Part shown: piece after piece, positions 1 through 8,970 of the stretch
Position numbering within the stretch: the stretch's first letter is position 1
Layout of the letters: each line of letters starts with the position of its first letter
Assembly: GCA_021817025.1 (NCBI GenBank)
Contig: JAKAWF010000119.1
Location: 1 to 8,970, forward strand
DNA length: 8,970 bases
Reading direction: 5' to 3'
DNA from: a bacterium
GTDB lineage: Bacteria > Chloroflexota > Dormibacteria > UBA8260 > Bog-877
The notes under the pieces: generated by a model
Databases searched by the model: none
What the model was told of the DNA's origin: nothing
What the model saw: the letters and a program-made list of their open reading frames with translations, nothing else
Position numbers and translations under genes: made by a program

Positions 1-1278
1 GTATAGCACTCGCGTCTCCTCGGCCAGGGTCAGGTCGTCCTCCGCTTCGGCGGCATTGAAGTCCACGAGGACGACCCTGTCGAACTCCATCCCTTTGGAC
101 CTATGGATAGTCGACACGGTTATGACTGGATTCGGCACTTCGGTAAGTTCGTCCGGTACGGCCCCCGTCCTGATCGCAGCTGCGACGGTCGGCAGAAGTA
201 AGCTGTCATGTGGCCGTCTGTCCAACCGCTTCAACAACCGCCAGGCTGTTTCAGGATCAGGCACGAGCAACCCCTGGGCTGCGAGCGTCTCCACACGCTC
301 GGTCAGTAGTCGCCTGCCCACCTGCTGGTATGGGACGCCGCGGAAGGCGACCGCAAGCCAGGGTGCGACGACCTGCGCTGCTGCGAGTCTCTGGAGGCGA
401 TGGGGCACTCCCTCAGAAAACAGCGCCTTCGATATCAGTAGTGCCTCGCCGTTCGTCCTGGTGAGTATCGCGGTCTTCTTCCCGCCACGAAGGAACTCCT
501 TCGCCGCCAGGCCGAGCGGGTTGGCGGACGGCATTCGGAGAAGAATTGTGTCCAGTCTTTGGCGGATTGAGTCGTAGGCTGGCGTGGGTTGGCACAACTC
601 GTCGCCCGCCCACAATACAGACTGCGCGTCCGCAGAGAGCGCCCGGAAGTTCTCCGTAAGTGTTGCCTCGTGCAGGTCGTCACCCCATCGTTCCCTGATC
701 CATCGGTACAGCAGTTGAGAGCCGAGGAGGCGAGCCTCCCCTTCTAACTGGAAGCTGTAGATGCCCTGGGCGGGGTCTCCGAAAAGGGTGAAACCGCCAC
801 CAGTTCGAAGTAGGATAGCCTTCACAAATTCGGCCCGCTCGCCGACCAAGTCCTGCACCTCGTCGACCAGAACGTGCCGAAACCCGGACATCAGGTTGCC
901 GACTTCACCACCTCGGTTGAGCAGCGAAGTGGCGGCCCTGATGCGGCCGTCGTACTCCTCTCCAGTCCAGGTCCCTTGGAAGTCGAACTCGCTCAAGACG
1001 CGGGTGGCGAAGGAGTCGAACGTGGTGGCTCGCGCGTACCGCGCATCGCCGCCTGAGGCGAGCAGCTGGCCTCGTAGGAGGCTTACCGCAGAACGAGTGA
1101 AACTGAGAACGAGGATCTCTTGACCTGGGCTCAGTCCGCAGGTGCCGATCAAATGCTGCACCCGCGCGATCAGCACCATCGTCTTGCCGGTGCCGGCGGG
1201 GGCCGTCACAAGGGTCCGCGCGTCCGCTTCGAGCCTGACTACGGCCTCCTGCTCTGAAGTGAGTCCGACCGTGGCCAC
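1..1278 (-). CDS. UvrD-type superfamily 1 DNA helicase, C-terminus cut by window edge
   Basis: This frame is open from the left edge to a GTG at 1278 and gives 426 residues. Visible SF1 motifs, in order, are the Q motif LTSEQ (6-10), Walker A PAGTGKT (27-33), motif Ia VLSFTRSAV (57-65), TTFDSF (85-90), motif II VDEVQD (138-143), motif III GDPAQGIYSFQ (167-177), motif IV LTENFR (207-212) and motif V TIHRSKGMEF (390-399). Motif VI and the end should lie just beyond the window. Family knowledge: ATP-driven 3'-5' translocation on single-stranded DNA. Motif Ib to II is about 50 residues and motif IV to V about 180, both shorter than in UvrD/Rep, so the 1B and 2B subdomains seem reduced. The GTG overlaps the upstream stop (TAGTG) and has only a weak GGTGAG in front, which suggests translational coupling. 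An in-frame TTG further up is a less likely start. The helicase call is firm; its role in defence is inferred. Confidence 0.93.
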   Translation of the reverse strand, partial: MATVGLTSEQEAVVRLEADARTLVTAPAGTGKTMVLIARVQHLIGTCGLSPGQEILVLSFTRSAVSLLRGQLLASGGDARYARATTFDSFATRVLSEFDFQGTWTGEEYDGRIRAATSLLNRGGEVGNLMSGFRHVLVDEVQDLVGERAEFVKAILLRTGGGFTLFGDPAQGIYSFQLEGEARLLGSQLLYRWIRERWGDDLHEATLTENFRALSADAQSVLWAGDELCQPTPAYDSIRQRLDTILLRMPSANPLGLAAKEFLRGGKKTAILTRTNGEALLISKALFSEGVPHRLQRLAAAQVVAPWLAVAFRGVPYQQVGRRLLTERVETLAAQGLLVPDPETAWRLLKRLDRRPHDSLLLPTVAAAIRTGAVPDELTEVPNPVITVSTIHRSKGMEFDRVVLVDFNAAEAEDDLTLAEETRVLY

Positions 1279-4200
1279 TATCTCACCGTCTGGTGGGGTG
1301 CCCAAAGGTGCTCGAACTGCCTGAATGCGAAGTCCTCCCCGAACTGCCTTACGTTGTCCTGCACGTTCACGATAAGGCACTCCGGTGTTCCCATGTTCCT
1401 CGGGCCACGCAGTCCCCGTCCAATCATCTGTTGGTACAGGTTCGGGCTGTAGGTCGGGCGGGCCACGTAGATGGCCTGGACGGCTGGCGCATCAAAGCCC
1501 TGCGTCAGGACCGCATAGTTCGTAAGCACCCGGACCCCGCCTATCCGGAACTGCTCGACGTAGTGCCGGCGCGCGCCGGGATCGGTGCTCCCGGTAATGG
1601 ACGCGGCCGGCACACCGTTCAATGACAGCAGGGCGGCCATGGTCTCCGCATGTTCGACCGACGCCGCGTAGAGAATCGCCGTCCAGTCAGCTGGCAGGGT
1701 GAGGAGTGATTGCAACAATGCGCGGTTTCGGTTCGTGTCGGCGCCGAGTCTGCCCTCCACAGACGGGGGGAACAGGCGTGTCCGGCGCAGCTGTGCCAAC
1801 TCCGTGTCCGTCAGGTCGATCGCGGAACCGTCCAGAACCTGGTGCTTCACTCGTGCAAGTACGCCCGCTTCCTGAAGGGTTCGGTAGGGGTCGTCTCCGA
1901 GCACGTCCTGATCCAACCTGACGTTTCCGTATCGGTGCACCAGACGCATTGTCTCATCCTGACTCGTGCCCCGGTACGGTGTCGCTGTCAGCCCGATCAG
2001 CGGACACCCGCGTCGACCGCGGTCCAAGCCCTGCCACTCGAGGAGCTTGCTGTAGGACTTCTCGGTGGTCTCGTGAGCCTCGTCCACGACAACACAGCTC
2101 GCTCTTCCAAGCCAGCCATAGTCATCCTTCAAAATGCACACCTGGAGCTTGTCGATCGTGGCGACCACCACGTGCATCGGCGAATCTGGTCGCACCGCTT
2201 CGTTGCCTCCCCAGAGTCGACTAATGTTCAGGGGCTGGTGTGCCCCGAGCCCACGCCAAACGTAGCTCCAAGACTGAACTGCCTGCTCGCAAAGCTCGTC
2301 ACTCTGCGCCACCCACAGGATCGGGCCTTTCAGGTGCCCGTCACCCATTTCCTCGATGAGGGCCTGGACGACTACGCGCGTCTTGCCAGCTCCAGTTGGC
2401 AACGACAACAAGGCGCGGTTCGCCTGCGGGCTGCGGACTAGGGCCCGAACCCGCTCGGCGATCACGGCTTGAAAGTCGTGCATCTCAGGGAGGAGCGGCG
2501 GGCCCTCGACTTCCAGCAGCGGCTCCCGCTTGGCCTGCTCGAAGCCAGCGAATTCTGGCGGGAAGCCGAGGTCACGGACAAATCGCCGGGCAGTTGTCGT
2601 ACCTGCCCATTGCACCGGGGGCTGAAGGCCGTTTGAGTCGAGCGCATTGCGAAAGGCGTGGAGCGCATCGACCCCGTGGACAGCGAGGGCAAGCCGCGCT
2701 AGCGAAGCATCGTCCAGGCGACCGTGCAGTTCCTGCACTGCGGACAGCAGTGCGGCAGGCAGCTGCCTTCGAATATTCCTAGCACCGACTGCAGATAGCA
2801 TCCGCGCTTCGAGAGTGGGCTCCTGTCTGATTCGAACGACTTGGGCATCGCGTGCCCGCTCGACCCGATCCGCTAGGATCTGGTCAATCTCGCCTTCGGA
2901 GAGCTCGATTTCGAACTCGTGGCGAATGGCGCGCAGCAACTCGCCATCGCTGCTTCCACACCAGTAGAGCCCATCATCGGAGATGTGCAGCGTTCGGTCC
3001 TCGGCGGTCTTGCCGGACTCCGTGAGGATCTCCAAGCGGAGAACCGAGCAGCGCACTAGCCTGAGCCGCGCCTGGCGCTCGTTCAAGACCCACCGGAGGC
3101 CCGGAAACTCGTCCACCAGCGGCAGCGGAGCGGATAGTGGCACCGCGTACACCTGGGTCTGAACGGCGGTCGCCGCTGGCCGCAGACCCCACCGCTCTGA
3201 AAGGATCGTCGCATCGTGCACCTCGGGCACCAACAGGGTCGGGGCCCCTTGGGGCATGAGTGCCTCGAGCTCACGCCTGGTCGTCACGACTGTTATGTTC
3301 GAGGGCGACTCGGCCTTGTGCGCAACGCCGACTCTACAGCGAATCGTGGGTGGAGGCGCGACGAACCGCGCGGCGGCACCGTAGAAACGGCCTATAGACT
3401 CATCGTCCTCAAGGACGTCGACCCTCTCCATGGCTTCAATCCAGCTGGCAGGATCGAGGGCCTCGAGCGTGCGGGGTAGGCCGAGGACGTCGACCCAGCC
3501 CTCCGGACACTGCGCGACTGGAAGGACCTTGTCCCAGTGGCGCAGCGTGTCTGCCACGCAGCCACTAACTGCCCTGACCCCAAGGGAGGTTCGAAGACGC
3601 CCCTCCCGCTGGACCCACCAGCAGTGGGGCGCTAGCACGGGCGTGGTTGGGTAGACGGCGGTCCGTGTCGTGTGCGTCAAACGCCAAGGCGACGGCGCGG
3701 GATCCAATTGATATATGGATGCGGTGAATCGCGCGCGCCCCTCCTCGCCTAGTTGGCGCAAGACCTCCAGCGGACCGACCTCCGTTGTTCCTCGCTCGAA
3801 CTCCATCTTGCTCTCTTGCGGCTGGGCGTGGTCGGGAGGGAGCGCCGCTAGATAGGAGGTGAAAGCATAATGGCAGTACTCGGGGAACCACGGCTCGCCT
3901 TGGATTGTCCGCCCGACTGTAGGCGCTGGAAGCGCTCCCAGCGCGCTAAGAATCTCTAGGTCCGGCGCGTGAAAGCCGACGTCGATCGTTGCAGACGCGT
4001 CGCTCTGGCCATCGTCGGCTACGATCGGGCCGGGCAGCAAGACGGAGTGGAGAGGTCGGAACGCGCCCGCCACGGTCTTGGCACAGACCTCGTGCTCCCT
4101 TGAGTTGGCTATTGCCTTGAGTGCCCCACTTCCCACGCGGCGGGACAGTCGCCAGAACAACTCCCACTTGGTATCGTCCCAGGACCCTGCCGCGGTTCTG

Positions 4201-5921
4201 AAAAGAACCTCCAACTCTTGGGTGGCATCCACGGGGGTGATGCCCAGCCGTTCTAGGACGGATAGCGCCCCGGGCTCCGCCGCAACCGCACGGTGTACGA
4301 ACGTGAACGGCACCGAGATGGAGTAGTCGCCCGGTAGGTAGACAGTCCCGGCGCGTGGCGCCACGAAAGTGCCGTCTGCGGTGAGCACAACCGGTGCACG
4401 TTCCAGCTCCTGACGCTGGTCTACCGTCAGGCCGTCGAGCACCAGATTGATTACCCGGAGTGCTGCGATCGAAGCCCCGGGCGTCCTCTCCTGCACAAGC
4501 TGCTCCAGCCAAACGGAAAGGCTGCTGGCCGACCGGCCGACCGCCGCCAACAAGCGCTCGACGCGGGGCCGACGGTCGCGCGTCTCAACCGACGAATGGG
4601 CCCAGTCGACGGGGCGCGATGGCGCCGACGCCCAAGCTTGGAGGGCGTGCCGCGAAACGCCTTCGGGATGGAGGTGCATGGTGGCTGGCACCTGAAGCTG
4701 TCCAGTCTGGTCCGGAATCGACGGTCGGTCCGTGGCCAGCCGGTAGACGGCCTCCGAGAGGTACTCGTCGGCGTGGTTCGGCGCCTCTCGTCCTCGCGCA
4801 GGGATCAGGTCGAGATACCGCCCGGGATCGGATCCGTCCGCCAACTGCCGGAGGCTGGCGACGATGAGAGATGCCGCCTCCTCCAGGAGCTCCTGGTTGA
4901 AGGTGCCGGCGAGTAGGTTCTGTCGGTCTTCGTTCGTCTTCCAGGGAGCATTCAGTATTCCCGAAAGGGTCGTGAAGTACTCGGTGGGAAAGAATGCCCA
5001 GAACCTCCCTCGCCCGCCACGCCCCTCCAGGGGGACGGCCCAGATCAGGGGCAATGTCTCCCGGTCCGCTAAATCGCCCGCTTCCTTCCTCGCCTCCGCG
5101 GAGGGGCTGTGATTCGTGGAGAAGACGCGCCAGACGCTGGACTTCTCGCCTTCGACTAGGCGGAGCTGGCCGTGCTCGTGACGATGAATCTGCAGTTCCC
5201 GCCGCAACCCCGCCGTCCGGTCCTCCAGGATCAGCCGGCCGACGTGAGGCGAGAATAGGAGGAACTCACGAGGGAAGTCCCGCATATCCTCGGACAACCA
5301 CAGTGAGTCTTCCATGTGGCGCGGTAGCTTGACCACAGTAGTCGCCCATGCCATGAGCTCAGCTAGCACAGGGTCGGCCGCCGCCGCCGCCAGTGGGTCC
5401 ACGACCTCCGCGATCCTGAGGACGGGAAACCGATCGGAGTCGGGACAAATGCGGCGGATGTGTTCCTCCGATAACTCGGCGTTAAAGGCGAACGAGCCGC
5501 CCCGGCTGTAGAACTCGGGCCGGTCGGTGACCCCTAGCACCGACTTGAACCCGAGACCGAAGCGCCCTATTTCGTTCCCCCGTTTCAGCGAAATGTGGGA
5601 GCTCAGAAGAGCCGTCACGCCGTTGGCATCCACGGCCGCCCCCTCATTCGCGCAGTAGAGCCCCTTCTCCGTCGCTAGGACGTGGATGCTGCCGCCGGGC
5701 ACCCCCATGAGAGCGTCGGCGCCGTTCTGGACTAGCTCGTAGATCTGCCTGCGGCCGTACCCCCCCTGCGCCGTGGCGCGCTCGATGTTCGCGTGCTCGA
5801 GCACCAGGGTGGGATTCACCCGATAAGCCTCTAACGTGCGCTCGGACTGGCTGAGAACTCGTCTCGTTACGGCCGACTCCTGTTGTGCCCAGAGCTCGGC
5901 CTCAACGCGCGAGAGGCTCAT
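1278..5921 (-). CDS. sacsin/NOV-type GHKL ATPase fused to DEAH-box SF2 helicase
   Basis: This 1547-residue protein has two ATPase modules. The N-terminal Hsp90-like fold shows ELVQNGADA (62-70; E62, N66 and D69 spaced as in Hsp90), NEG (92-94) and GRFGLGFKSV (119-128), followed by NAPWKTNEDRQNL (about 324-336), which is usual for sacsin/NOV proteins. The C-terminal SF2 helicase shows PTGAGKT (1175-1181), DEAH (1280-1283), TATP (1312-1315), LTQGFDA (about 1472-1478) and QMIGRGLRG (1498-1506). Roughly 800 residues between them match no domain I know, apart from repeated short motifs. No nuclease motif is visible. The family is known from large bacterial proteins in defence and restriction-like islands; target recognition by the NOV part and nucleic-acid remodelling by the helicase are inferred. 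The ATG sits in an ATGA overlap with the preceding gene and has no Shine-Dalgarno sequence, so it probably depends on coupling. It could act in repair instead, but gene context favours anti-phage conflict. Confidence 0.93.
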   Translation of the reverse strand: MSLSRVEAELWAQQESAVTRRVLSQSERTLEAYRVNPTLVLEHANIERATAQGGYGRRQIYELVQNGADALMGVPGGSIHVLATEKGLYCANEGAAVDANGVTALLSSHISLKRGNEIGRFGLGFKSVLGVTDRPEFYSRGGSFAFNAELSEEHIRRICPDSDRFPVLRIAEVVDPLAAAAADPVLAELMAWATTVVKLPRHMEDSLWLSEDMRDFPREFLLFSPHVGRLILEDRTAGLRRELQIHRHEHGQLRLVEGEKSSVWRVFSTNHSPSAEARKEAGDLADRETLPLIWAVPLEGRGGRGRFWAFFPTEYFTTLSGILNAPWKTNEDRQNLLAGTFNQELLEEAASLIVASLRQLADGSDPGRYLDLIPARGREAPNHADEYLSEAVYRLATDRPSIPDQTGQLQVPATMHLHPEGVSRHALQAWASAPSRPVDWAHSSVETRDRRPRVERLLAAVGRSASSLSVWLEQLVQERTPGASIAALRVINLVLDGLTVDQRQELERAPVVLTADGTFVAPRAGTVYLPGDYSISVPFTFVHRAVAAEPGALSVLERLGITPVDATQELEVLFRTAAGSWDDTKWELFWRLSRRVGSGALKAIANSREHEVCAKTVAGAFRPLHSVLLPGPIVADDGQSDASATIDVGFHAPDLEILSALGALPAPTVGRTIQGEPWFPEYCHYAFTSYLAALPPDHAQPQESKMEFERGTTEVGPLEVLRQLGEEGRARFTASIYQLDPAPSPWRLTHTTRTAVYPTTPVLAPHCWWVQREGRLRTSLGVRAVSGCVADTLRHWDKVLPVAQCPEGWVDVLGLPRTLEALDPASWIEAMERVDVLEDDESIGRFYGAAARFVAPPPTIRCRVGVAHKAESPSNITVVTTRRELEALMPQGAPTLLVPEVHDATILSERWGLRPAATAVQTQVYAVPLSAPLPLVDEFPGLRWVLNERQARLRLVRCSVLRLEILTESGKTAEDRTLHISDDGLYWCGSSDGELLRAIRHEFEIELSEGEIDQILADRVERARDAQVVRIRQEPTLEARMLSAVGARNIRRQLPAALLSAVQELHGRLDDASLARLALAVHGVDALHAFRNALDSNGLQPPVQWAGTTTARRFVRDLGFPPEFAGFEQAKREPLLEVEGPPLLPEMHDFQAVIAERVRALVRSPQANRALLSLPTGAGKTRVVVQALIEEMGDGHLKGPILWVAQSDELCEQAVQSWSYVWRGLGAHQPLNISRLWGGNEAVRPDSPMHVVVATIDKLQVCILKDDYGWLGRASCVVVDEAHETTEKSYSKLLEWQGLDRGRRGCPLIGLTATPYRGTSQDETMRLVHRYGNVRLDQDVLGDDPYRTLQEAGVLARVKHQVLDGSAIDLTDTELAQLRRTRLFPPSVEGRLGADTNRNRALLQSLLTLPADWTAILYAASVEHAETMAALLSLNGVPAASITGSTDPGARRHYVEQFRIGGVRVLTNYAVLTQGFDAPAVQAIYVARPTYSPNLYQQMIGRGLRGPRNMGTPECLIVNVQDNVRQFGEDFAFRQFEHLWAPHQTVR

Positions 5922-6478
5922 GGCAATAGTGTCAGGAGGTTGATAATCCCCCGAGCCGGGAAGCGCCCAGCCAGTTCGGCACCGCTCATTAGCTGCCGAT
6001 CGACGCCGCGACGCGGCGTCGTACTGATGAACTCGAGCGTCCCTGGCTTCCCCAATTGTGAGTTGTGAGCCGAGGCGAAGATGCAGCGGCGCGTCACCTG
6101 GGTGGCCCCCGGATCATTGAGATGGACAGCAGTGCGTTCGGGTGCGCCCGGCGTGATCCCATTGCCGTCGTCCCAGACCGTACGGCCCTGACCAAGAACA
6201 TGGCGCAATACGCACGATACTGCACTGGATCGATTTGTCGGGGCCGAGTCCATCCTGGACGGATCGAACGCCCCGAGCGCAAATGGCAGCTCATCAACGG
6301 CAGAGAGCGCCGCGCCGACGGTGATTTGCGCCCCGACGGCATGTATCGCAGTCAGTGCCTCGCTCAGGGAGTCGAGATCTTGCTGATAGCCCGGACTTGG
6401 GCGCTGGCGGAACCGGTGATACCGCCATCCGGTCGCTGGCGAGTGGGTCGGTCGGCCCTCGGAGGTCAGGTTCGCCAT
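5918..6478 (-). CDS. Hypothetical 186-residue protein, first gene of the helicase cassette
   Basis: I do not recognise this protein. It is predicted soluble, with no obvious signal peptide or membrane segment. The N-terminal 30 residues are polar and rich in R, P and S. An Ala/Leu-rich stretch follows (about residues 42-72) and then a basic, Gly-rich C-terminal half. I chose the ATG at 6478 because GGAG lies four bases ahead of it; a GTG at 6574 would add 32 residues but has no ribosome binding site. The best evidence that it is a gene is its end: its TGA overlaps the ATG of the NOV-helicase as ATGA, and that downstream gene lacks its own Shine-Dalgarno. Third codon positions are moderately G/C-rich, like the downstream gene. 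A rival plus-strand frame covers much of the same DNA but has no supporting context. It could be a specificity or adaptor subunit; that is speculation. Confidence 0.6.
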   Translation of the reverse strand: MANLTSEGRPTHSPATGWRYHRFRQRPSPGYQQDLDSLSEALTAIHAVGAQITVGAALSAVDELPFALGAFDPSRMDSAPTNRSSAVSCVLRHVLGQGRTVWDDGNGITPGAPERTAVHLNDPGATQVTRRCIFASAHNSQLGKPGTLEFISTTPRRGVDRQLMSGAELAGRFPARGIINLLTLLP

Positions 6479-6508
6479 CTTACTCCGACTCTGGAGTCCC
6501 TGAACGTC

Positions 6509-6533
6509 GCGGTGTCCCTCGACAGGACCCCGC
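6509..6533 (-). repeat. Inverted repeat upstream of the cassette's first start codon
   Basis: The arms are 6509-6517 (GCGGTGTCC) and 6525-6533 (GGACCCCGC), pairing at 8 of 9 positions around a 7-base loop. The repeat lies about 30 bases ahead of the ATG at 6478. It could be a leader hairpin or an operator, or it could be chance in GC-rich DNA. If translation began at the GTG at 6574 it would be inside the coding region. Confidence 0.35.
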
Positions 6534-6639
6534 TTCGCGCCAGTAGCATACTCGGTGGCTTGAAGGCTCTTCACTGGATTAGGTGTGGGTGGAGGGCTGG
6601 GGAAGGCGGCCAGCGAAATGATGGATGAGGGTGATCATC

Positions 6640-7748: not shown

Positions 7749-8723
7749 TCACCATCCCGAATACTCCGACACCAGACTTGCGGGCCACCCAAAGACTTCA
7801 CGGAACCGTCGATGCGCTTCCGGGTCTGGGTTGGTAGTTTTAATGGTCACGTTCGGGTCACACTGGGCTCCCCCAGCGCCTCGTGAGCCAACCCGAAGCA
7901 GATACCTTACACCCTCGTCCTCGTGCGGGAGACTATATCCAACGATGTTCAAGGTTTTGGCTCTGCGCAGAGCAAAGAGGGCGTCATCCCAGGTCGGGGT
8001 CAAGATTGGATTCACTGTTGCTGCGCTTCCAGTTGTTGCCATCAACGGCCTGGGAGGGATTGTGGAGGTTGGCGCCCATGATCCTGTTGGTACCGCGCCT
8101 GAGAAGAATATGGACCCGTGAAGCTTGAGCACCACGACTAGACCACGTCGCAGCACCGGATTCCGCCGACCCTTGTTGTTCACCGGCCATGCGAATTCTG
8201 CCTGCGCACCCATTCCAGCAGCGGCGACTGCGTCCTCGATCAGGCTATCCCAATTGGTTGTAATGACAACACACGGCGCGTGACTCTTGATAAATGCCGT
8301 AAGGTTACGGGTCGAAGGGTTGGAGGGTGGTTTCAGCAGGCCGGCAATCTCATGAGCGAGGGCGCTCTGAAGCTTACCCCAACTCATTGGCACACCTGGC
8401 TGTGGGTTCGGATAGCGCGAAGCAATCTCTACCGTCCTGAAGTATTCGGCCGCATTTGGTACAAAGGCGTAGTCCCCGGCGTCGGCATACAAGACTTTGA
8501 AGGAGTGCCTGATGTCCTGCTTGAGGCTGGCGGCAGTCGACCCCACTCTTGCACGCCTTGTTAGCAGGAGAGTCAATAACTCTTGAGTGATGGGAAGGCC
8601 AGCGCCCTTGGAGGCGCCCGCTCCCAGAAAAAGAACGTCCCATTTCCGATTGGGGGTCCGGCCCCTCGCTGCTTTCGCAGGTTTGCTCTGAGGGCCCGCG
8701 GAAGTCACCTGGGCAATTGACAT
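7749..8723 (-). CDS. SIR2-domain protein, probable NAD-consuming defence effector
   Basis: This 324-residue protein has a single SIR2-like fold. The sequence shows the NAD-binding loop FLGAGASKGAGLP (32-44), VVITTNWDSLIEDA (152-165; N157, D159), KLHGS (200-204; H202 as the expected catalytic histidine) and LNIVGYSLPHEDE (258-270). Only two cysteines (C151, C288) are present, so the four-cysteine zinc site of deacetylase sirtuins is absent. This agrees with the SIR2-like NADases of bacterial defence systems, which hydrolyse NAD+ on infection. The first 27 residues are basic and low-complexity. There is no membrane segment and no fused sensor domain, so a partner must supply sensing. Third-position G/C is visibly lower than in the remnants next door, suggesting acquisition by transfer. 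The nearest same-strand gene downstream is the helicase cassette, about 1.3 kb away, so membership in that system is inferred, not shown. Confidence 0.88.
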   Translation of the reverse strand: MSIAQVTSAGPQSKPAKAARGRTPNRKWDVLFLGAGASKGAGLPITQELLTLLLTRRARVGSTAASLKQDIRHSFKVLYADAGDYAFVPNAAEYFRTVEIASRYPNPQPGVPMSWGKLQSALAHEIAGLLKPPSNPSTRNLTAFIKSHAPCVVITTNWDSLIEDAVAAAGMGAQAEFAWPVNNKGRRNPVLRRGLVVVLKLHGSIFFSGAVPTGSWAPTSTIPPRPLMATTGSAATVNPILTPTWDDALFALRRAKTLNIVGYSLPHEDEGVRYLLRVGSRGAGGAQCDPNVTIKTTNPDPEAHRRFREVFGWPASLVSEYSGW

Positions 8724-8778: not shown

Positions 8779-8790
8779 TGGGCATGCCCA
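8779..8790. repeat. 12-base perfect palindrome over the transposase start codon
   Basis: TGGGCATGCCCA is self-complementary and centred on the ATG of the divergent IS630 transposase. It could be an operator shared by the divergent pair, or it could be coincidental in GC-rich DNA. The element's terminal inverted repeat should also lie nearby, but cannot be identified with only one end in view. Confidence 0.4.
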
Positions 8791-8970
8791 ATCACCCCGC
8801 CCCACCACTGCAAGTCGATGCGACGGACCTGGAACTGCTGACCACCTGGTCGAAGAGCCAGGTGCTGCCCCAGCGACAGGTGATGCGAGCCAAGATATGC
8901 CTGCTGGCGGCCGCCGGAGTCCCCAATATGGAGATCGCCCGACGGCTTGGGTGCTCGCTGCCGACAGTTG
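8784..8970 (+). CDS. IS630-family transposase, N-terminal part, cut by window edge
   Basis: The ATG at 8784 opens a frame of 62 codons that runs off the right edge. It begins MPNHPAPPLQVDATDLELL and continues with QRQVMRAKICLLAAAGV and EIARRLGCSLPTV, which is the helix-turn-helix DNA-binding N-terminus usual in IS630 (Tc1/mariner-like) transposases. The DDE catalytic domain would be beyond the window. The closest style I recall is that of actinomycete copies. The left end of the element must lie in the 60 bases between this gene and the SIR2 start unless it reaches into the latter. Family knowledge: these elements insert at TA dinucleotides, and TA occurs at 8725-8726 and 8753-8754. Whether the copy is intact cannot be judged. 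Confidence 0.8.
   Translation, partial: MPNHPAPPLQVDATDLELLTTWSKSQVLPQRQVMRAKICLLAAAGVPNMEIARRLGCSLPTV

Follow-up and report, generated by a model that had tools for sequence, protein, structure and literature searches.

The window analysed here, i.e. the whole 8,970-nucleotide stretch at positions 1 to 8,970 of contig JAKAWF010000119.1 (assembly GCA_021817025.1, Chloroflexota lineage Bog-877), carries on its reverse strand a gene (1278..5921) whose 1547-residue product joins a sacsin-type GHKL ATPase to a RadD-like superfamily 2 (SF2) helicase, hereafter termed the fusion. This gene is probably the first of a DISARM-like anti-phage operon core consisting of the fusion, a UvrD-type helicase, DrmA and DrmB, which is generally accompanied by a cytosine-5 DNA methyltransferase, and the most fitting description of the fusion is that of signature subunit of a DISARM-like class. 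We infer the anti-phage function from gene linkage in sequence data, the fusion being assigned a defence role because it is linked to the DrmA/DrmB operon. A reading of the window made from its letters alone (the sequence-only reading) had suggested such a link to defence, which the neighbourhood survey below supports, and had refrained from naming a system; the gene can now be placed in a DISARM-like operon, with most of its partners falling beyond the window.

Conserved gene order in relatives of the fusion

The best 80 of 435 loci from one genome scan, mostly of Streptomyces and other actinomycetes, were examined as a homologue-first sample. Four of these are cut by contig ends (L040, L057, L081 and L082) and were set aside, and 74 of the 76 loci with enough downstream DNA keep the order fusion-UvrD-DrmA-DrmB on the same strand (73 complete loci by a strict order test plus L055, where the UvrD gene was revealed by tblastn and six-frame profiles). 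In the two exceptions, L013 and L041, the fusion is a second copy, and a complete set lies elsewhere on the same contig (L075 and L028, respectively). The second full-length copy of L013 adjoins a NaeI restriction gene (8.1e-119), and that of L041 a UvrD-type gene. The UvrD gene directly follows the fusion in 76 of 80 loci, a count that rests on tblastn and six-frame profiles, as a simple gene caller found this partner in only 42. The shared context of these homologues is a DrmA/DrmB operon and not a housekeeping locus.

When neighbour clustering and six-frame profiles were applied to the loci as a whole, UvrD was present in 78 (two of them weak, at 64 bits), DrmA in 76, DrmB in 75, a cytosine methyltransferase in 73 and Vsr in 56 of the 80. 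The families were named by PADLOC and Pfam scans of representatives, PADLOC assigning DrmA (3.7e-239 and 1.2e-237) and DrmB (1.4e-70 and 1.1e-63) on two representatives each. Other recurrent families are a helix-turn-helix (HTH) protein (59 loci), an unnamed family (59) and DUF6339 (58). These form a divergent three-gene module between the methyltransferase and the fusion in approximately 58 of the 80 loci (L015 and L027 among them), comprising the HTH protein (PADLOC PDC-M33A), the unnamed family of ~330 residues and the DUF6339 protein (PDC-M33C). A GHKL-like motif was read by eye in the HTH protein, for which Pfam reports the HTH only.

The members of the core have diverged in step. Over 73 loci, the pairwise distances between fusion proteins correlate with the corresponding distances for UvrD (r = 0.978), DrmA (0.980) and DrmB (0.957), and also, in fewer loci, with those for the accessory HTH protein (0.887, 55 loci), Vsr (0.629, 53 loci) and methyltransferase (0.596, 68 loci). 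Of any paralogues the best match was used throughout, which may lower the Vsr and methyltransferase values. None of 500 permutations matched any of these correlations. The methyltransferase follows the four core proteins less closely than they follow each other.

The fusion belongs to one DrmA clade

As a control starting from the partner, 296 genomes sampled from the class to which a Streptomyces belongs were searched for DrmA; 46 were positive and, with the starting genome left out, 54 DrmA places from 45 genomes were fetched and scanned. Twelve of these places, in 11 genomes, carry the fusion together with UvrD, DrmA and DrmB. The others comprise one locus (L195) without the fusion, 14 of a second type without the fusion, four remote ones and 23 canonical ones, the labels "canonical" and "second type" being assigned from DrmA profile scores and gene content. 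In a 77-row DrmA tree, built by a quick method without bootstrap and including 23 of the 80 homologue-first loci, all 35 fusion-bearing rows and L195 form one clade of 36 with a Shimodaira-Hasegawa-like approximate likelihood ratio (SH-aLRT) support of 99. Within the DrmA-first sample, the full-length fusion occurs only in this one clade, which is separate from canonical DISARM. The two samples overlap (L198 and L022 have identical DrmA, and the contigs of L195 and L082 are equally long), so they are not fully independent.

The same sample yielded several further observations. A gene resembling NERD-helicases lies upstream of UvrD-DrmA-DrmB in L195, and a stand-alone protein related to the helicase half of the fusion is encoded in the canonical locus L246. 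Among the loci of the second DrmA-DrmB type (L206-L219), nine of 14 possess a family assigned to MzaA through its representative (7.1e-55), and the HTH/unnamed/DUF6339 module is present in two. DrmA was found in 16 of 297 genomes of Acidobacteriota, where among 24 short pieces only those of the starting genome had a class-like DrmA score, and in 39 of 301 genomes of Chloroflexota, where of 30 short loci, fetched from part of the DrmA places, only that of the starting genome was clearly class-like and one other was borderline at 1112 bits; the pieces from both phyla are too short to show the fusion gene.

Architecture of the fusion protein

The open reading frame (ORF) at 1278-5921 (-) is intact, with an ATG start, 1547 residues, no internal stop and a gene-like codon composition, and it is one real gene encoding two ATP engines, as the sequence-only reading had observed. 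Both engines are recognised by family models (NCBIfam P_loop_sacsin over its cut-off; ResIII and Helicase_C), and the architecture recurs in the 120 listed homologues, the fusion itself included, which are single chains of 1429-1830 residues with 92-100% coverage, the others being 45-66% identical to it. The family is large, with 2972 proteins passing an E value of 0.001 among 7995 scored; as its profile includes the protein of the window, the score of that protein against it is no evidence.

The GHKL ATPase and transducer occupy residues 34-362 (4836..5822, -). The N-box E62-N66-D69 (5715..5738, -) is invariant in all 47 rows of alignment A2, as are N92, G94, G122, G124 and K126, with R120 retained in 46, while the glycine-rich motif IGRFGLGFKS (residues 118-127; 5541..5570, -) aligns with KVGRFGIGFNSV of sacsin. 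The second GHKL motif usually has an Asp; the fusion has Asn instead, and PDB chains of sacsin have Asn at the aligned place. The N-terminal ATP-binding signature of sacsin is present (NCBIfam NF047352, 62.1 bits against a cut-off of 50) and sacsin chains rank best in a PDB profile search, with the Pfam SACS model remaining under its cut-off. At the other end, the RadD-like helicase module (residues 1076-1547; 1278..2696, -) contains a Walker A motif at 1175-1181 and a DEAH box at 1280-1283. Residues K1180, D1280, E1281, A1282, H1283, T1314, R1502 and R1505 are invariant in 31 of 31 rows of alignment A1. Its nearest solved helicase is RadD, and stand-alone helicase relatives align to residues 1076-1545 and 1091-1540 of the fusion.

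The sequence-only reading had also noted some 800 middle residues devoid of a recognised domain, and this description holds: residues 363-1075 (2697..4835, -) have no Pfam or NCBIfam match and are mostly predicted as a confident fold, as judged from the predicted local distance difference test (pLDDT) by block. A profile comparison of residues 365-1145 detected no pair of repeated segments above 40% probability (100% for the self-comparison control). A fold search with VIA-align covered essentially residues 34-362, and a known fold may be present in the middle region. The suggestion that the chain acts as a sensor or remodeller would be compatible with this architecture; taken as a whole, that earlier interpretation is partly supported.

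Beyond the sampled operons, a stand-alone sacsin half (Pfam SACS, 33.7 bits, over cut-off) is encoded in a restriction-type operon of the Arthrobacter plasmid p2MP (L001, 8055-11345). Phage and plasmid collections contained no record with a place covering 80% of the fusion, and the 20 rows listed for either collection are predominantly helicase-only. Among 80 loci kept from viral contigs, one holds a near full-length relative (L083, 40% identity; 9938-14656), located at the end of its stretch with any partners out of view, and the others match helicase residues only.

Genes adjoining the fusion in the window

The gene following the fusion (1..1278, -) encodes a UvrD/GajB-like superfamily 1 (SF1) helicase, of which 426 residues lie within the window before it runs off the end (PF00580, 9.4e-25 in a scan from 1380). 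A profile made from the UvrD gene of the relatives gives it a score of 429 bits, and its nearest PADLOC models are RTasHel (2.5e-21) and GajB (4.2e-21). The two genes meet in a TAGTG junction (1276..1280, -), where the TAG stop of the fusion (1280-1278) and the likely GTG start of the UvrD gene (1278-1276), picked from reading frame and homologues, have one base in common. From these data and the relatives we infer that the operon of this window continues into drmA and drmB beyond its end.

On the other side, a 218-residue ORF (5918-6574, -), whose TGA overlaps the ATG of the fusion (ATGA), has a weaker codon pattern and no Pfam match, and may be either a chance ORF or a small leading gene. 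The approximately 1.8 kb upstream of the fusion comprise four scanned ORFs with no Pfam match, and are followed by a SIR2_2 gene (7749-8723, -; PF13289, 1.2e-7) with a codon composition (0.59/0.54/0.60) unlike that of the operon. This gene was considered as an operon component and dropped, since it is present in none of the 80 relative loci; it is probably a separate defence-type gene. An open-ended ORF at 8784-8970 (+) matches HTH_23 (27.2 bits, cut-off 24.6) and, by its resemblance, is possibly the start of a transposase.

A core of predicted motors

In agreement with the sequence-only reading, which saw no nuclease motif, a Pfam scan found no nuclease family on the fusion, nor on the part of the UvrD gene within the window. 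A model of the UvrD partner of L033 (pLDDT 89.3) combines a UvrD-type core (3.7e-19) with a beta-rich C-terminal part, and Pfam again returned no nuclease match for this protein. The DrmC marker occurs in one of 92 fusion-bearing loci (both samples together) as opposed to 21 of 23 canonical loci, and the DrmD and DrmMI markers (matches above 80 bits) in five and one of the 92 as opposed to nine and 13 of the 23; the profiles for all three were built from those 23 canonical loci themselves and named through PADLOC on one representative each. Candidate nucleases are optional only, namely Vsr and a NERD-helicase after DrmB in L033 (2.4e-10), with L008 and L011 judged to have the same from the beginnings of the sequences. 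Further optional candidates are the N-terminally extended UvrD-type helicases of L015 and L080 and, by clustering, of L025; by analogy with ArmD of ARMADA, this extension might be RelE-like. The best reading is that the operon core possesses no conserved nuclease and four predicted ATP motors.

Alternative explanations and proposed mechanism

Several observations weigh against the assignment of the window to a DISARM-like operon. Its end falls inside the UvrD gene, so that drmA and drmB are not in view, the nearest loci with both genes are only 47-48% identical to its fusion, and the scanned upstream ORFs show no methyltransferase. Seven of the 80 relatives likewise show no methyltransferase, L195 has the UvrD, DrmA and DrmB of the fusion clade without the fusion, the second copies in L013 and L041 lack a DrmAB of their own, which indicates that the parts can separate, and the distance correlations still include host ancestry. 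This separability would be expected if the fusion and UvrD were an independent two-gene defence system, often stacked against DISARM DrmAB, as would the second copies beside NaeI-type and other UvrD-type genes, the UvrD-DrmAB set of L195 and the solitary N-terminal half in another restriction operon of an Arthrobacter plasmid. However, both second copies share a contig with a complete set, order and strand are kept almost throughout, DrmA and DrmB track the fusion as closely as UvrD does, and the fusion-bearing loci carry one DrmA clade rather than the canonical kind. We consequently regard two stacked systems as unlikely.

A DNA-repair or genome-maintenance complex acting on host DNA, composed of RadD-, UvrD- and MrfA/DrmA-type helicases with a MutL-like ATPase, is suggested by the nearest solved relatives of the two helicases, RadD and UvrD chains, both of which are repair enzymes, and by the cooperation of MutL with UvrD mentioned in sections of PMC2292703. 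Its patchy occurrence (four-gene loci in 11 of 295 class-sample genomes besides the starting one) and the frequent company of a cytosine methyltransferase, Vsr and a DISARM-clade DrmA fit restriction or defence better than core repair, and make this explanation very improbable. We give scarcely any more credence, and if anything slightly less, to the idea that the gene of the window is a solitary or decaying copy outside any working operon. The SIR2 gene absent from the relatives, the family-less ORFs that separate it from the fusion, the possible transposase fragment beyond it and the existence of copies without DrmAB could be so explained; the ORF is nevertheless full-length with all checked motif residues intact, and the adjoining UvrD gene, which overlaps it by one base, scores highly against its counterparts.

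Under the preferred DISARM-like assignment, the methyltransferase would mark host DNA, and DrmAB would load on unprotected DNA that exposes a 5' single strand, in the way others showed for canonical DISARM. The GHKL module may then close around this complex, acting as an ATP-gated dimer clamp like its structural relatives MutL, MORC and topoisomerase VI-B, allowing the tethered RadD-like helicase and the UvrD helicase to unwind or strip the clamped DNA. Phage replication would stall, and the DNA could be finished off by nucleases that the locus or the host supplies. The clamp action, DNA as its substrate and this order of steps are all put forward as a proposal.

Sacsin-type ATPases are best known from the human ataxia protein, and the operon offers a bacterial setting for them in which genes can be removed one by one. 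It is not yet settled by what means a DrmAB core acts against phage, or whether a nuclease is required for this, and a DrmC-poor class with extra motors is a natural comparison.

Comparison with known defence systems

The operon of the relatives resembles DISARM in its separate, adjacent genes for DrmA and DrmB, which make up the DISARM core, and in the DNA methyltransferase of the locus. According to passages of PMC9142583, DrmAB of DISARM attaches to single-stranded DNA and to 5' overhangs, and DrmC seems to be dispensable; in the operon of the relatives DrmC is nearly absent. The operon differs from DISARM in the addition of the sacsin-helicase fusion and a UvrD gene before drmA, and in having its own DrmA clade. 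DISARM class 1 is defined by DrmD (SNF2) and the DrmMI methyltransferase, and class 2 by DrmE. The operon should not be filed under either class, because these further defining parts were sought and are generally missing: DrmD and DrmMI are as rare as described above, and the one DrmE model used (PDLC02636) gave no match in six of six operon genomes. The methyltransferases of two representatives match MTase_II models better than DrmMII. It may well be that the operon works like DISARM.

ARMADA, BRIGADE and TALON were described by Bell and co-workers (PMC12458937), parts of whose report state that a DISARM-like clade holds many uncharacterised classes and that ARMADA type II has several helicases and demonstrated broad anti-phage action; GHKL, Hsp90 and sacsin do not occur in its main text. 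ARMADA type II, as outlined there, likewise has a single operon that encodes a methyltransferase together with a YprA-family and a GajB-like UvrD helicase, whereas the operon of the relatives has a split DrmA/DrmB and the fusion in the leading place. ARMADA itself, with a YprA helicase, a DUF1998 part and a fused Vsr nuclease in one chain, does not correspond to the operon, where DrmA and DrmB are separate genes; indeed, the DrmA proteins of L020 and L033 match DrmA models with no Vsr match (PADLOC for both, Pfam for L020 only).

Likenesses to other systems are partial. Residues 14-540 of the fusion match eight PADLOC models of TmtA from Tiamat (best 2.4e-46), but these matches span only the N-terminal ~450 of some 1540 TmtA positions, ending near position 450-580 of ~1300-1780, so that the fusion is not a full-length TmtA; it has a helicase in place of the TmtA C-terminal part, and its UvrD-DrmA-DrmB partners are foreign to Tiamat. 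The UvrD partner matches models (4.2e-21) and structures (4.6e-12) of GajB from Gabija, yet it is closer in fold to UvrD (3.7e-19) and adjoins the fusion rather than GajA, which was absent among the 25 shown of 29 PADLOC families in a scan of the fusion only. Iyer and co-workers (PMC2292703) described restriction operons in which GHKL proteins occur alongside SF2 helicases, methylases and Vsr; in the MORC/paraMORC operons of the sections consulted, ATPase and helicase are separate genes and no DrmA-type helicase is named.

Sections of PMC3710099, PMC11090510 and PMC8011034 contain nothing closer, and no description of this operon, nor any exactly matching system, was found among the papers listed by the literature searches, most subscription papers and the supplements of PMC12458937 lying outside their scope. 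On this comparison of sequences and gene content, fusion-UvrD-DrmA-DrmB is best called a DISARM-like class not described in that literature. A bolder proposal, which we advance tentatively and consider rather doubtful, is that it constitutes a third DISARM class with a four-motor core (sacsin clamp, RadD-like, UvrD-like and DrmA) and no nuclease, which halts phage mechanically, by clamping and unwinding unmarked DNA without cutting it; if this were true, the fusion would form a bridge between DISARM and restriction operons of the MORC type.

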